From positions 1 to 52,769 of the forward strand of contig DAIDLH010000098.1 in the NCBI GenBank assembly GCA_027449605.1: 52,769 bases of DNA, written 5' to 3'. The position numbers and the translations under genes are program-made. Origin of the DNA: Candidatus Muproteobacteria bacterium. GTDB taxonomy: Bacteria; Pseudomonadota; Gammaproteobacteria; Acidiferrobacterales; Sulfurifustaceae. The notes under the pieces are model-generated. The model was not told the origin of the DNA. It worked only from the letters and a program-made list of their open reading frames with translations, and ran no database searches. Below are positions 2,219 to 12,334 of this stretch, piece after piece. Numbering within the stretch: the first letter of the stretch is position 1; each line of letters begins with the position of its first letter.

Positions 2219-2638
2219 ATGAGGGCCGGAGCCCACATGATTCACCCCGTCGCGAATTCCTCAAAGCACCTGTTGCTCTCCATCATCGAGCTCGGCGGCT
2301 ACCCGAATTTCACGCCGGTCTACCAGCAGGCGGGTTATGCCGTGGAATCGGCGGCCTCGGTGCGCAAGGCGATTGCGTCACTCAAGAAAGCCGCCCCCGA
2401 CGTGATCGTGGCCGAATTCAATTATCAATCGGATTTCCGCGACCGCACCAGCAGCCTGGAGTCGCTGCTGGCGGTGGTGCAGCGCATGCCGCGTACGCGT
2501 GTAATCCTGTTCTACGAGAAAGAGCACGAGCATCAGCTGGTGAAGCTGACGTCACGCTTTCCCATCCATGAAGCCCTGTCCTATCCCATAGATCCCGCCA
2601 GGCTCGGGGAAAGCCTGCAACGCGCCGTTTCCGGCTGA
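2219..2638 (+). CDS. Receiver-like (pseudoreceiver) protein
   Basis: 139 residues from the ATG at 2219; an ATG at 2237 has a better-spaced GGAG, and the frame is open further upstream, so the start is uncertain. The alternating pattern resembles a response-regulator receiver: LLLSIIELGG strand, AGYAVESAAS strand, then PDVIVAEFN where the phospho-acceptor Asp should be, then RVILFYEKEHEH, and ALSYPID at the end. The position of the conserved Asp is Glu (VIVAE), and the usual Thr/Ser and Lys are not apparent, so it is probably not phosphorylated in the normal way. No output domain. Could instead be an unrelated flavodoxin-like fold. It precedes the ferritin-like gene in the same direction. Confidence 0.5.
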   Translation: MRAGAHMIHPVANSSKHLLLSIIELGGYPNFTPVYQQAGYAVESAASVRKAIASLKKAAPDVIVAEFNYQSDFRDRTSSLESLLAVVQRMPRTRVILFYEKEHEHQLVKLTSRFPIHEALSYPIDPARLGESLQRAVSG

Positions 2639-2768
2639 CCCGGACGACGACCGCGGCCGCCATACGGAGGCGGGAACCCCTCGCGTGGCGGCCGGTCTTA
2701 TTTCCCGATCCCGCGCGCCCAGCGGCGTGGAATTTCCCCGACAAAACCATCCAATCAAGGAGAACACC

Positions 2769-3473
2769 ATGAGCACGGAAACCATCTCTCCCCAGGCCCG
2801 CTACCGCCAGTCCATGGGCCAGTTATTGATGCTCTACACGCAGGTCGACAAGCTCATCATGGAGATTTGCGCCCAGCGCCTGGAGGACGCACCCGACGAG
2901 GAAGCGGAGCTGTCGCTGGCGAAGCAGGTCGGCGACGAAAGCCGCCACGTTTCCATCCAGCGCCAATGGATGCGCGACTTCGGAACCCGTCCGGAGCCGG
3001 TCATCACGCCCGAACAGGAACGAATGATCCGCGCGCATTTCCGTTCGCTGCCGTGGATCGATTTTCTCGCCGATCTGTATGTCTGCGTGGAAGCGCTGGG
3101 GAGCGAGGCGGTGGAGCGCATCGTGCCGCTCGCCGATCCGGGCACGCGCGAATCGCTGCGCGTCCCGCTCACCGACGAGATCGACCACGTCGCCTTCGGC
3201 GTTTCGCGGCTGAAGCGGGAACTGGCGCAGCTTGCCGAGAGCGAGCGCAGGGAATTTCTGGAGCGTCTACCCGTGCGCATCGAAGCGTTGGCGGAGGCCT
3301 TTCACGGCTTCGGTTTTTCCGTGCGCGACATGTTCGTGGCCGTCGGCGCGGATTACGATCGGCTGTGCCGGATGCTGGAAGAGCGCCAGAGTGAACTGAT
3401 CGCGGAACTCGCCGCCGCTCCCCAGGCGGTCGGCCGGCAACCGGCGCGGGAGACAGCGGGTGTTTCATACTGA
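2769..3473 (+). CDS. Ferritin-like di-iron protein
   Basis: 234 residues starting at MSTETIS; AAGGAG lies 7 bases upstream of this ATG, so the longer upstream frame is rejected. The protein is almost entirely helical and carries two ExxH motifs: DESRH (about residues 58-62) and DEIDH (about 137-141). Additional acidic residues lie in neighbouring helices (for example MEIC, ALGSEAVE), the arrangement expected of a carboxylate-bridged di-iron four-helix bundle (ferritin/rubrerythrin/MiaE-like superfamily). A precise substrate cannot be read; oxygenase, peroxidase or iron-binding roles are all possible. It sits between the pseudoreceiver and a small exported protein, each with its own Shine-Dalgarno. 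Confidence 0.65.
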   Translation: MSTETISPQARYRQSMGQLLMLYTQVDKLIMEICAQRLEDAPDEEAELSLAKQVGDESRHVSIQRQWMRDFGTRPEPVITPEQERMIRAHFRSLPWIDFLADLYVCVEALGSEAVERIVPLADPGTRESLRVPLTDEIDHVAFGVSRLKRELAQLAESERREFLERLPVRIEALAEAFHGFGFSVRDMFVAVGADYDRLCRMLEERQSELIAELAAAPQAVGRQPARETAGVSY

Positions 3474-3502
3474 GCGATTAAACGACTGACAAGGAGATCA
3501 TC

Positions 3503-3751
3503 ATGAAATTTCGCCTGCTCATTGCTGCCGTGGTTTTTGCGTTCGCAACCGGCAATGCTTTTGCGTTTCATTGCCCCAAGGAAATGAAGAAAATCGACGA
3601 CGCGCTCGCGGCCAAGCCCGGCGTCGCCGCCGAGCGAATCGCCGAGGTCAAGCGTCTGCGCACCGAAGGCGAGACCCTGCACAAGCAAGGCAAGCACCAG
3701 GAGTCGCTGGATGCGCTCGGGCAGGCCGAGAAGATACTGAACATCCAGTAG
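3503..3751 (+). CDS. Small exported helical protein
   Basis: 82 residues with a clear Sec signal peptide (about 1-21, cleavage after AFA) and a mature chain of ~60 residues with a single Cys near its N terminus (FHCPKEMKKIDDAL). The rest is amphipathic helix with a TPR-like sense (HKQGKHQESLDALGQAEKIL). AAGGAG lies 6-7 bases before the ATG. I recognise the type as a conserved short periplasmic protein of proteobacteria without assigned function. It follows the ferritin-like gene by 29 bases and may be cotranscribed with it. Confidence 0.6.
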   Translation: MKFRLLIAAVVFAFATGNAFAFHCPKEMKKIDDALAAKPGVAAERIAEVKRLRTEGETLHKQGKHQESLDALGQAEKILNIQ

Positions 3752-4069
3752 CGGAAGCGCTGCTGTACTCCATCCCCGCTCACGCGAAGCCTGGCGTGGG
3801 AGTCGTTCCTCGCGCGTTTTCTACGGGCCGACCATGCGCCCGCTTCGGTTGCTCGCAACCGCTCGACGGCAGATTGCGCGGCTTGCCGGCGGGAAGTTCG
3901 TTGTAGCTCTCGGCTTTAAGTCGGGCGGCCGACTGGGAGCGGCTCTGGCCCGATAGGCGGGCGATGTCTGATTCGTTCAGCAAGGATATTCCGTTGCAGT
4001 CGCTTTTTGTCGGAATTCCTCAGAGGTATACTCCGCCGCTTGAAAGACATCATTCCAGGAGGTGCAGTC
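3752..4069. other. Non-coding spacer with a candidate promoter
   Basis: About 318 bases without a supportable gene. The first 200 bases show no clear signal. Near the 3' end there is a candidate sigma-70 promoter (4004-4032) and an AGGAGG Shine-Dalgarno for the next gene. Confidence 0.5.
4004..4032 (+). promoter_or_regulatory. Candidate sigma-70 promoter of the glycine-zipper gene
   Basis: TTTTTG (4004-4009), 17-base spacer, TATACT (4027-4032). The -10 is good and the -35 weak. It would give a leader of about 30 bases. Confidence 0.4.
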
Positions 4070-4552
4070 ATGTCCGAAACCAGTCAATCCGGTTCGTCCC
4101 CGATCGTAAAGATTGCCGCCGTGGCCGTCATTATTTTTTCCGCCGTCGGCGTCGGCATGATGACCGGCATCATACCGGGTGCTTCGTCCAGGAATGCGGC
4201 GCAGGACGCCGCCAGGGACTGTCCCAGTTGCGGCGTGGTCGAATCGATCAAGCTCGTCGAACTGAAGGGCGAGGGATCGGGCGCCGGCGCCGTGGCCGGC
4301 GGCGTGCTCGGCGCCGTGGTCGGCAATGAAATCGGCGCGGGCCGCGGCAAGACCCTGGCCACCGTCGCGGGCGCGGCGGGCGGCGCCTATGCCGGTAACG
4401 AGGTCGAGAAGAACGTGAAGAAGTCGACTTACTTTCGCATCACGGTGCGCATGAACAACGGCGGCGTGCGCACCATTACCCAGAAAACCGATCCCGGTTT
4501 CAAGTCGGGTGACAGCGTGAGGATCGAAAACGGCGCGCTGGTCAGGGGATAG
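4070..4552 (+). CDS. Glycine-zipper 2TM-domain membrane protein
   Basis: 160 residues from the ATG at 4070, which has AGGAGG upstream; an in-frame ATG 63 bases earlier lacks one. Residues ~12-35 form a hydrophobic anchor (VKIAAVAVIIFSAVGVGMM). A Gly/Ala-rich segment at ~70-110 has the repeated G-x3-G pattern of the glycine-zipper 2TM family (GAVAGGVLGAVVGNEIGAG). The C-terminal ~45 residues (YFRITVRMNNG..GDSVRIENGALVRG) match the beta-rich tail of SlyB/Rick_17kDa-like envelope proteins. Unlike SlyB it lacks a lipobox; the anchor appears uncleaved. Envelope-integrity role by family; exact function unknown. Followed by a strong terminator. Confidence 0.75.
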   Translation: MSETSQSGSSPIVKIAAVAVIIFSAVGVGMMTGIIPGASSRNAAQDAARDCPSCGVVESIKLVELKGEGSGAGAVAGGVLGAVVGNEIGAGRGKTLATVAGAAGGAYAGNEVEKNVKKSTYFRITVRMNNGGVRTITQKTDPGFKSGDSVRIENGALVRG

Positions 4553-4598
4553 GCCGGAACGCCGGAACCGAAACACGATCTCGGTTCGTGTCCTGAAG

Positions 4599-4628
4599 GG
4601 GCGCGCTTCATGACGAAGTGCGCCCTTT

Positions 4629-4630
<2 letters not shown>
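4599..4630 (+). terminator. Rho-independent terminator
   Basis: An 11-bp stem with one G-U pair (GGGCGCGCTTC pairing with GAAGTGCGCCC), a 5-base loop and TTTTT. The T run touches the stop codon of the convergent metH gene. Confidence 0.85.
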
Positions 4631-8354
<3,724 letters not shown>

Positions 8355-9145: not shown

Positions 9146-10165
9146 TTATTCGAAGGAGCGCGAGGTCAGGCCGAGCTGCAACAGGCGCTGGATGAAGTCC
9201 TCGTAGCTGAGGCCGGACTTGATGGCCGAGAGCGTGCAATCCTCGTCCCGCGCAATGCCGGGGTTGGGATTCGCCTCCAGCACGTAAAGCGCGCCGTCGG
9301 CCGCCATGCGCAGGTCGATGCGGCCGTAGCCGTTCATGTCGAGCAGGTGGTACACGCGCTTGCACAGGTGGCCGATGCGTTCTTCCATGCCGTTCGGCAG
9401 GTTGCGCGCGAACTGGTAGTCGATGCCCCAGCGCTCGCGGTACTTGTCGTCCCATTTCACCTTGTAGGTCGCCATGCGCGGCGTGCCCGGTTCGGCGTTG
9501 CCGAACACCAGCTCGCGGATCGGCAGAACCTCGAGCTTGGTGTTGCCGAGCACGGTGACATAAAGCTCGCGTCCCTCGATGTACTGTTCGGCGATGGCGT
9601 CGCCGTGGAGTTTCTCGTGAATCAGCGCCACGCGCTCGCGCAACTGGGTTTCGTTCTCGACGTACGACGCCTTGGCGATGCCGACCGAGCCTTCCTCGGT
9701 CAGTGACTTGACGATCAGCGGATAGATGAACTTGCGCCGCCGGCTGATTTTGCGGCCGAGCCGGAACACGTCGAAGTCGGGGACGCTGACGCGGTGATAG
9801 GTCAGGATCATCTTGGTCAGCGCCTTGTCGCGCGCCAGCAGCAGGCCGCGCGGGTTGCAGCCGGTGTAGGGAATGCGCATCATCTCGAGATAGCTGACGA
9901 CGTAGTAGTCGAAGACGCTGTTGCCGGCGAAGTCTTCCAGCAGGTTGAACGCGATGTGCGGTTTCCATTCCTCGTTCAGCTTGCGGATCGGCGCCAGGTC
10001 GTCGTAGACGCCGACCGCCTGCACCTCATGGCCGAGATTCAGCAACGCGGTCTTGACGTCGTACTCGGTGCGGTACTTCTCCATCCGCGGGTCGTCCTTG
10101 TCGCGCAGGTCGTCCGGCGGCACCAGCGTGTAGTGCACCAGCATCATGACACGCAGTTTTTTCAT
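9146..10165 (-). CDS. ATP-grasp ligase of the D-Ala-D-Ala ligase type
   Basis: 339 residues. ATP-grasp fold: N-terminal pre-ATP domain (MKKLRVMMLVHYTLVPP) and YTGCNPRGLLLARDKALTK, the D-Ala-D-Ala-ligase-like entry to the central domain. These are followed by the ATP-binding lysine in PLIVKSLTEEGSVGIAK, the EQYIEGRELYVTVLG strand, and the metal-binding end DLRMAADGALYVLEANPNPG. Such enzymes join a carboxylate to an amine through an acyl phosphate. The non-Ddl N terminus and the neighbours argue against a cell-wall Ddl. The start ATG overlaps the stop of the upstream peptidase (ATGA), so translation is coupled. The substrate is unknown; a peptide or amino-acid ligase is the best inference. Confidence 0.8.
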   Translation of the reverse strand: MKKLRVMMLVHYTLVPPDDLRDKDDPRMEKYRTEYDVKTALLNLGHEVQAVGVYDDLAPIRKLNEEWKPHIAFNLLEDFAGNSVFDYYVVSYLEMMRIPYTGCNPRGLLLARDKALTKMILTYHRVSVPDFDVFRLGRKISRRRKFIYPLIVKSLTEEGSVGIAKASYVENETQLRERVALIHEKLHGDAIAEQYIEGRELYVTVLGNTKLEVLPIRELVFGNAEPGTPRMATYKVKWDDKYRERWGIDYQFARNLPNGMEERIGHLCKRVYHLLDMNGYGRIDLRMAADGALYVLEANPNPGIARDEDCTLSAIKSGLSYEDFIQRLLQLGLTSRSFE

Positions 10166-11232
10166 ATCGCCAGGCGCGAGGTGCCGCTGCGCAGCGAACC
10201 CATGTAGAGCATGACGAGCGAGGAGATGAGGGCGATCTTGGTTTCCTCGCGATCGCGCGAGGCGTGCAGGTTCATTTCCTCGCAGCGGTGGATCATGTCC
10301 TCGATCGTGAGGTTGATGCGGTAGCGGGAATCCGAAGTCCAGCGCGCCACGGTGCCGATCGCCTCGCGCCGCAGGCGGCGGATGAAATGCGCCGCGCGCT
10401 CGTTCTTGTGTCCGGCCGAGGCCGGGAAGATCAGCCGCAGTTGCTGTTCATGAAAGCGCGGCAGGTCCTGTTGCAGGCGCGTCTGCTTTTCGGCGTAATA
10501 CTCGCGCAGCGTGATGCGCAGCGTGGTGGTGGATTCGATCTGTTTCTTGGTGCGCACCGGCGGGCTGCGGCCGACGATCTCCTTCATCAGTCCGTCGACG
10601 TAATTGAGTTTCTTGAGCGCCGGCCAGTCGCGGTATTTTTCGCGCCAGCGCGAATCGGGGTCGAGCCACACGGCGAAGGTCTCGGCCCAGTCCTCGGCCG
10701 GATGGCTCTGCGCGTACCAGTTGTCGAGATGCAGCACGTAATTGCGGCTGTAGGGCCGCGGCAGATAGCTCTCGGGATAGGTCTTGCTGGCGCGCCCGAA
10801 GCGGCGGCGCCAGCTCTGCTTGAGATGCAGCCGGAACGCGTTGGCGAGCGCGTGCGCGGTTTCGTGCCGCAGCAGTTTCATGCGCGACTCGGCGGTGTTG
10901 CCGTCGAATTCGAGCATGCGCGCCTTTTCCAGGCGCATCAGCCGCGGATGCGCGAGATAGAACGGGATCGCGAATCCCGGCACGCCGTCGGGACAGAACC
11001 AGCAGTCCGACAGCCAGGTGTGCGGACGGAACAGGAAGCCGCGGTTTTCCAGCTCCCGGTACAGGGCGTCGATTTCCTTTTGCAGCTTGGCGCCGGCCAG
11101 CGTCAGCCCCAGGTCGCACAGGCGCGTGTCGAGCAGGTGCTCGTCGGAGCGGCGGGTCCAGGATTGCGTGACGATGCGGCGCGCCGGTTTTTTGCGGCGG
11201 CGCGGTCGGTGTTTGGTTTTGCGCGTTGGGAT
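10162..11232 (-). CDS. Zinc-binding metallopeptidase (HExxH), apparent ATC start
   Basis: 356 residues if started at the ATC at 11230-11232. Coding similarity to family members as I remember them extends upstream of the first in-frame GTG (10981-10983): CDLGLTLAG, LYRELENRGFLFRPHTWLSD, CWFCPDGVPG. Between the preceding in-frame stop (11257-11259) and that GTG there is no ATG, GTG or TTG. AAGGAG followed by six bases leads exactly to ATC. HETAH (about 123-127) is the zinc-binding gluzincin motif; the Glu of DWAETFAVW (~184) is the likely third ligand. The family is annotated as putative zinc-binding metallopeptidase of unknown substrate. It lies 27 bases after the TraB/GumN stop and overlaps the ATP-grasp gene by ATGA. 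A base error turning ATG into ATC is the alternative. Confidence 0.75.
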   Translation of the reverse strand: MPTRKTKHRPRRRKKPARRIVTQSWTRRSDEHLLDTRLCDLGLTLAGAKLQKEIDALYRELENRGFLFRPHTWLSDCWFCPDGVPGFAIPFYLAHPRLMRLEKARMLEFDGNTAESRMKLLRHETAHALANAFRLHLKQSWRRRFGRASKTYPESYLPRPYSRNYVLHLDNWYAQSHPAEDWAETFAVWLDPDSRWREKYRDWPALKKLNYVDGLMKEIVGRSPPVRTKKQIESTTTLRITLREYYAEKQTRLQQDLPRFHEQQLRLIFPASAGHKNERAAHFIRRLRREAIGTVARWTSDSRYRINLTIEDMIHRCEEMNLHASRDREETKIALISSLVMLYMGSLRSGTSRLAI

Positions 11233-11259
11233 GTCCGTCTCCTTGTTTTTCAGTTTTTA

Positions 11260-12240
11260 TCAATAGACGCGGGTGACACGATAACCGGCTTTCTCGAGAA
11301 GATTCAACAGTCCCGTGTCGCCGGGCAGGTGCGCCGCCCCGACGGCGACGAAGGCATTGCCCTCGCGCAGTATCGGTCCGAGGCGCGCGGCCATGCGGGT
11401 GTTGCGCCGCGTCAGCAGGCGGTCCATGACCGACCGGTACAACCGGTCGTCATCCGGCTTGTGTTTCGCGCCGGCCTCGGCCAACGCGGCGATGTCGCGG
11501 GCGAGATAGCGCCCGATCATCTCCTCGAGGTCCTTGTCGAAGCTGTCCTGCTCCTGCACCGCCTGCCGCAGCAGCGCGATCTGGTCGGGCAGGGGGAGTT
11601 CGTCGAAGACCGCCACCTGTTCCTGCACGGTTTCGAGTCCCGAGACCGGTTTGTTCTGTTGCGCGGCACGTTGCTGCAGGATCAGGTCGAGATACTCGCC
11701 GGTTTTCGGCGGCGGCATCGACAGCGCCATCATCGCCGCCCACGGTTTCTGTTTCTCCACGCCCAGCGTGGCGATGCCGCGTGCGGTCAATGTCTTGATC
11801 GTCTCGTCGTACAGTTTCCCGCCGATCACCTGCTCCAGCGTGCGGCCGTCGTTGAAGAACATGGCCTCGGCCATGTGCACGATGCCCTCGCCGTCGATCA
11901 CCGCTTCCATCGTGAAGCGGCCGGCAGCGTCGAATGCCTTGGTCACGGCTTCGGGCAGAACCGTGACGCGCCGGTCTTCGGAGTGAATCGTGCCGAACAG
12001 CCAGCTCGACCGCGCGCCTGGCGCGTCGATCTTCCATAACAGACCCTTGGTGTATTTGGATGCCGGTGGCGGTGCGGGGCGAGCCGCTTCGTTATTGGCG
12101 CCGGCATTCGCCGGCGGAGCGGCGTATGTCGTGCCCGCGGCAAACGACAGGCACAACAGCGCAATCAGGATTTTGAAGAAGGACCGCGAACCGGTCGCGG
12201 TCCGCGTCGAGGCCGATGACGGGAAACCGGCGCCTCGCAT
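11260..12240 (-). CDS. TraB/GumN (Tiki-like) exported protein
   Basis: 326 residues from the ATG at 12240; the frame is open to a GTG at 12318, which would add 26 residues before the signal sequence. Residues ~23-42 form a Sec signal (FFKILIALLCLSFAAGTTYAAP). The mature domain has the paired GxxH motifs of the TraB/GumN/Tiki fold: LFGTIHSED near the start and VGAAHLPGDTGLLNLL at the end. Eukaryotic Tiki proteins of this superfamily are metal-dependent proteases; bacterial members are mostly uncharacterised. Likely periplasmic. It is first of three tightly packed minus-strand genes with the metallopeptidase and ATP-grasp ligase, suggesting one process. Confidence 0.8.
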   Translation of the reverse strand: MRGAGFPSSASTRTATGSRSFFKILIALLCLSFAAGTTYAAPPANAGANNEAARPAPPPASKYTKGLLWKIDAPGARSSWLFGTIHSEDRRVTVLPEAVTKAFDAAGRFTMEAVIDGEGIVHMAEAMFFNDGRTLEQVIGGKLYDETIKTLTARGIATLGVEKQKPWAAMMALSMPPPKTGEYLDLILQQRAAQQNKPVSGLETVQEQVAVFDELPLPDQIALLRQAVQEQDSFDKDLEEMIGRYLARDIAALAEAGAKHKPDDDRLYRSVMDRLLTRRNTRMAARLGPILREGNAFVAVGAAHLPGDTGLLNLLEKAGYRVTRVY

Positions 12241-12334
12241 GGGTGGTGTCAGGAGAAGGTCATACGATTGTGCCACCGTTGAGAATGGCGCCACGGAATC
12301 GGAGTCACCTTCACTCACGCCCCCTCACCCCTTG

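Follow-up and report, generated by a model that had tools for sequence, protein, structure and literature searches.

Among the closest described arrangements to the genes reported here is the Anbu operon, in which Anbu is accompanied by an ATP-grasp enzyme, an Alpha-E protein and a transglutaminase-like protein. A tagging system is proposed for this operon in the parts available to us of two Anbu papers, which name these four genes, and a text search of both papers for 'zinc' and 'metallopeptidase' gave no match. Here, a peptidase gene followed directly by an ATP-grasp ligase gene was analyzed in a stretch of 52,769 nucleotides from a Candidatus Muproteobacteria bacterium (GCA_027449605.1, contig DAIDLH010000098.1), the whole of which is called the window below. 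By profile, the ligase resembles D-Ala-D-Ala ligase (Ddl) and the peptidase a 'putative' one.

The peptidase and the ATP-grasp protein are encoded by a real, tightly coupled two-gene unit that occurs across several bacterial phyla. An ATP-grasp profile run against the named GTDB contigs returned at least 592 confirmed relatives, and among the best 80 of these, which were examined (the named loci), a peptidase homologue lies upstream of the ATP-grasp gene in 73. Sorted by record title, which can be wrong for drafts, the pairing was seen in Pseudomonadota (29/33), Acidobacteria (8/11), Planctomycetes (13/13), Nitrospirae (19/19), Myxococcota (2/2), Deltaproteobacteria (1/1) and Methylomirabilis (1/1). 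The named loci and relatives, taken together with the class and phylum survey loci and with identical proteins removed, comprise 113 distinct ATP-grasps. A peptidase gene lies upstream on the same strand in 106 of them, with gaps of up to 216 bases, and the genes share an exact 4-base overlap in 92; these are the closest relatives, and the paired share may fall further out. The original prediction, that ligase and peptidase belong together beyond close relatives, is thus borne out, and confinement of the pair to close relatives was checked for and not seen.

Co-occurrence provides further evidence. Among 60 relatives, both genes were found in 29, the ATP-grasp gene alone in 1 and neither in 30 (thresholds 1e-30 and 1e-5). 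Pairwise distances between peptidases and between ligases correlate across 98 full pairs (r=0.82, without a control). Within the class, the peptidase was detected in 11 of 185 genomes; within the phylum, it was detected in 9 of 398, namely the source genome and eight from a single genus, by gene order perhaps Bradyrhizobium. In the phyla to which a Nitrospira record and Rhodopirellula sallentina belong, it is present in 33 of 148 and 33 of 149 genomes, respectively, the thresholds differing between surveys. A search of PLSDB for plasmid carriage of the peptidase gave no match at E<=1e-5.

The features of the locus are the following:

10162-11232, minus strand: predicted Mx-type zinc peptidase, 356 amino acids from ATC; upstream gene of the pair; PF15887, E=2e-7
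9146-10165, minus strand: Ddl-like ATP-grasp ligase, 339 amino acids; second gene of the pair; PF07478, E=5e-28
10162-10165, minus strand: ATGA, in which the stop codon of the peptidase gene overlaps the start codon of the ligase gene; same 4-base overlap in 92/113 distinct ATP-grasp loci
11230-11232, minus strand: probable peptidase start codon ATC; ATC in 8 and ATT in 1 at the aligned place in 9 genus genomes
11239-11244, minus strand: AAGGAG, resembling a ribosome-binding site, before the ATC; 9/9 genus genomes
11260-12240, minus strand: TraB/PrgY/GumN (Tiki-like) protein, from ATG; PF01963, E=5.5e-63; a neighbour outside the module

The three minus-strand genes, their motifs and their junctions had been recognized previously and are found as described, with one reservation on a junction that is given below. 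The peptidase carries HETAH followed by HPAEDWAE, and the ATP-grasp protein carries EANPNPG. No PADLOC or PHROGs family matched any of the three window proteins at E<=0.01.

On profile evidence, the window peptidase is a divergent member of Peptidase_Mx and a predicted zinc peptidase. It scores 31.2 bits against PF15887 (gathering cut-off 27), a local match to profile positions 90-164 of 236. PF15887 is the only Pfam family matching all 25 of the 25 aligned peptidase homologues (E<=1), other families matching at most two, and profile comparison with full-length Mx gave 97.4% (E=1e-11) over 87 columns spanning both active-site motifs. The HExxH motif is identical in 102/102 homologues and the downstream E/D/E in 101/102. 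A search for a related solved structure gave none for the peptidase, the best matches (E=0.33 with the protein, 0.018 with the profile) not being peptidases; the full-length Mx profile reaches 9urd, a zinc metallohydrolase lipoprotein (E=0.0024).

A second Mx protein in the source genome ties this family to the Anbu operon. The window peptidase gave no match to the zinc-ribbon PF10005, which is present in an Mx protein encoded on another contig (C36; L166, 1-8263), where the gene adjoins those for Anbu, a circularly permuted ATP-grasp and Alpha-E. The class survey gave 25 Mx loci besides the source genome's own, and in 16 of them one or more of these three genes lies no further than 1.5 kb away. 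Mx also co-occurs with the pair above expectation (7/11 versus 18/174 genomes; Fisher p=8e-5, uncorrected for kinship). As Mx is found near Anbu, permuted ATP-grasp and Alpha-E genes and a divergent Mx beside a Ddl-like ligase, Mx-type peptidases accompany two types of ATP-grasp.

The ligase has its best relatives among Ddl enzymes and resembles Ddl and Van ligases by profile, and the ATP and metal residues of Ddl are conserved in it. Across 105 aligned ATP-grasps, all from paired loci, Lys153, Arg282, Asp284 and Asn299 are identical in 105/105; the conservation of catalytic residues in both families is more than chance. The Ser-Leu of the source genome's own Ddl, which we take to bind the carboxylate of the second D-Ala, is retained in 0/105. 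The first of these positions is Glu in 81, Asp in 16 and Gln in 8, and the second is Asp in 84 and Glu in 21.

Several lines of evidence separate this protein from canonical Ddl. It scores 113.7 bits against TIGR01205, under half the cut-off of 245.65, and falls below every Ddl cut-off shown. The source genome encodes a canonical Ddl (352.6 bits, TIGR01205) on a different contig, where genes identified by eye as murB-like and ftsQ-like flank it, and the pair lies outside that mur/fts cluster. In ten genomes from several phyla, a Ddl above the cut-off accompanies the pair protein in eight, and in a ninth it is just under (239.3). A FastTree phylogeny built from one in three of the 105 sequences, rooted on the source genome's Ddl, placed the 35 pair proteins in one clade (support 0.946), with the five other Ddl-like ATP-grasps included falling outside it. 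Identity with Ddl was rejected given the sub-cut-off score, the separate canonical Ddl and the replaced Ser-Leu, in line with the earlier distinction of the ligase from Ddl. A grouping with true Ddl enzymes near mur genes, named at the outset as an outcome that would speak against the proposal, was checked for and not seen.

The original prediction had placed the TraB/GumN gene in the unit as a third component. Its assignment holds: both GxxH motifs (FGTIH and VGAAH) were read in addition to the PF01963 match, its export being judged by eye alone, and its frame offers an alternative in-frame GTG start at 12318. Among 30 near relatives, 16 have the gene next to the pair; of the 18 loci obtained by searching the class and the phylum, a single one does, and it comes from the genus of the source genome. 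Both figures are lower bounds, since the flanks span about 1.5 kb; a longer stretch, available for one genome (G011, L063), also carries the gene. It occurs in 6 of the best 80 named loci, and its adjacency is confined to gammaproteobacterial relatives. TraB was dropped as a member of the unit for this reason and is a local neighbour, not part of the module; the proposed neighbourhood survey of the ATP-grasp gene upheld the peptidase and not TraB.

Outside the source's own gene order, the flanking genes vary. Neighbour families were taken from a codon-usage gene caller, which is rough: it missed the pair genes in L054 and mis-called L063 and L156. The next commonest neighbour family is TtcA-like by eye (18/80 named loci; for example L102:3610-4455 and L100:4111-4950) and occurs in Nitrospira and some gammaproteobacterial loci; lineage alone might explain it. 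No third gene family exceeded 18/80 loci, and no precursor-like conserved neighbour was found beside the ligase, among open reading frames of at least 60 amino acids (smaller ones were not searched). No transporter or biosynthetic gene is common to the loci.

The most likely function, by analogy with related enzymes, is amide ligation in the cytosol, with a dedicated partner peptidase that would act on the product of the ligase. As expected of its family, the ATP-grasp enzyme would use ATP to activate a carboxylate as an acyl-phosphate and would join it to an amine other than D-alanine. At the positions matching the D-Ala carboxylate site of Ddl, the residue pair is mostly acidic and would suit a positively charged acceptor, which is a guess. 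The translationally coupled Mx-type peptidase would then hydrolyze the same amide, so that one bond is both made and broken, as we infer by analogy. Both proteins lack a signal by eye and are probably cytosolic. The pair may in this way attach and remove a small amino-acid or peptide-like tag, as is proposed, unproven, for the Anbu system in the material available to us. Taken as a whole, the make-and-break tag reading is tentative and falls somewhat short of being probable.

Several observations weigh against it. Seven of the 113 ATP-grasps have no adjoining peptidase; two of these seven draft genomes have a peptidase elsewhere, whose flanks (read for roughly 1.5 kb in either direction) gave no ATP-grasp match, and none was found in the other five. 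In an eighth draft genome, that of L092, the contig stops inside the peptidase gene. In some cases the ligase may work by itself. Nine of the 25 Mx loci have no Anbu-operon gene within 1.5 kb, and four of the 11 pair genomes gave no Mx. The charged acceptor hangs on one aligned site, the first residue of which is Gln in 8/105. Finally, a viral collection holds 28 loci (L200-L227) encoding relatives of the peptidase (29-40% identical), 27 of which show no ATP-grasp match in the flanks read; the exception is L200, whose flank holds a bacterial-looking gene (by eye) and whose contig was the only one recovered by an ATP-grasp scan of the collection. Because the ligase is absent near 27 of 28 viral relatives, the peptidase fold can work without a ligase.

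The gene data would fit equally well with sequential processing, in which a terminus freed when the peptidase shortens a protein or peptide is then capped or extended by the ligase, the two enzymes working in one direction and not in opposition. In its favour, the peptidase gene is first in all 106 adjacent cases, but no conserved substrate gene stands beside the pair within the limits of the neighbour survey, where no family exceeded 18 of the best 80 loci, and the explanation is considered rather unlikely. The lack of a shared transporter or biosynthetic gene counts against a metabolite route, in which the ligase would make a small dipeptide-like or amine-conjugate compound for storage, stress or signalling and the peptidase would degrade it; such a route would need two genes only, and Ddl-like ATP-grasps do join small amino acids, yet it is judged unlikely.

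Two further explanations start from resemblance to described enzymes. The part of PMC8939145 available to us reports zincin and Tiki/TraB peptidases in branch 2 ATP-grasp loci of candidate-phyla bacteria, which would favour reading ligase, peptidase and TraB as a graspetide-like ribosomal-peptide cluster. Against it, TraB does not stay with the pair, the best relatives of the ligase are Ddl enzymes, and no conserved neighbour of at least 60 amino acids looks like a precursor (smaller frames were not searched); such a cluster is considered very improbable. A second cell-wall ligase, that is, a Ddl paralogue working with a wall-peptide peptidase, would account for the resemblance to Ddl and Van ligases in profile searches. 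It would also agree with the draft genome of Rhodopirellula sallentina (G634, L149), in which the Ddl model at E<=1e-20 finds the pair protein alone and no canonical Ddl. Against this stand the score of under half the Ddl cut-off, the canonical Ddl in the source genome and above the cut-off in eight of ten others (just under it in a ninth), and the loss of the Ser-Leu in all 105 sequences; a wall function is accordingly rated as scarcely credible.

A broader extension of the make-and-break reading is that Mx-type peptidases are general untaggers of bacterial ATP-grasp tags, with an Anbu branch and a Ddl-like-ligase branch, the latter a minimal two-gene reversible tagging system, and with phage relatives acting on the same kind of tag. 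This is speculative and doubtful. If true, a minimal reversible tagging system would span Nitrospira, Planctomycetes, Acidobacteria and Proteobacteria.

The start of the peptidase gene bears on the junctions described earlier. The ATGA junction at 10162-10165 stands, and the 27-base gap between TraB and peptidase stands only on the assumption that translation of the peptidase begins with the ATC at 11232-11230. The gap depends on this unusual start since the first ATG, GTG or TTG in the frame, a GTG at 10983, falls within the conserved core. AAGGAG followed by ATC (8) or ATT (1) at the aligned site is kept in all nine genus genomes, the source genome included, and five of the nine have no in-frame ATG, GTG or TTG from the preceding stop to residue 33, which makes the ATC start credible. 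The peptidase gene of the genus thus appears, from these alignments, to begin at a conserved ATC or ATT, a rare type of start codon retained across a genus. The genus is probably Sulfuricaulis, as two Sulfuricaulis records among the named GTDB contigs match at 88 and 92%.

Two of the four ligase-less viral proteins that were scanned (L205:4725-6230 and L220:4821-6134) consist of an Mx-like part followed by an iron/manganese superoxide dismutase C-terminal domain. In L220, genes resembling those of the queuosine pathway (by eye) lie at 2375-4821, just before the peptidase-dismutase fusion.

Compared with described enzymes, the pair ligase shares with Ddl its fold family, by sequence, and its ATP and metal residues, and differs in scoring below the Ddl cut-offs, in lying outside the mur/fts cluster and in its replaced Ser-Leu. 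The window peptidase shares the HExxH and HPxEDxAE regions with Peptidase_Mx PF15887 but lacks the PF10005 zinc-ribbon and matches the profile over positions 90-164 of 236 only. Tandem ATP-grasps linked to kamA (L162, L163) are likewise Ddl-like and 25-27% identical to the window ligase; their loci differ in having two tandem ligases and no Mx-type peptidase match, and all five such ATP-grasps lie outside the pair clade. The flanks of L162 and L163 hold a lysine 2,3-aminomutase-like gene (kamA) and an acetyltransferase fusion, both named by eye. The branch 2 graspetide loci, as presented in the available part of PMC8939145, resemble the window in combining an ATP-grasp with zincin and Tiki/TraB peptidases; they differ in their candidate-phyla hosts and precursor peptides, TraB being unconserved at the pair and a precursor not found among frames of at least 60 amino acids. 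PMC4431377 contains nothing on peptidases. The pair is unnamed in the literature titles and abstract openings searched, which did not cover the 2009 amidoligase survey of Iyer and colleagues, so that an earlier mention is possible.

The Anbu operon is like the pair in that a peptidase and an ATP-grasp amide ligase are encoded next to each other, and its neighbouring Mx is homologous to the window peptidase. It is unlike the pair in that its ATP-grasp is circularly permuted (PF14403) and is found with Alpha-E and Anbu, whereas the pair's is Ddl-like; no Anbu, circularly permuted ATP-grasp or Alpha-E gene was seen among the flanking genes read beside the pair. Because the pair is kept tightly across phyla, a definite biochemical job is expected of it. 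The family tie of its peptidase to the Anbu operon, whose function the papers as available to us likewise leave open, connects the two questions and provides a compact set of two enzymes that lends itself to testing.

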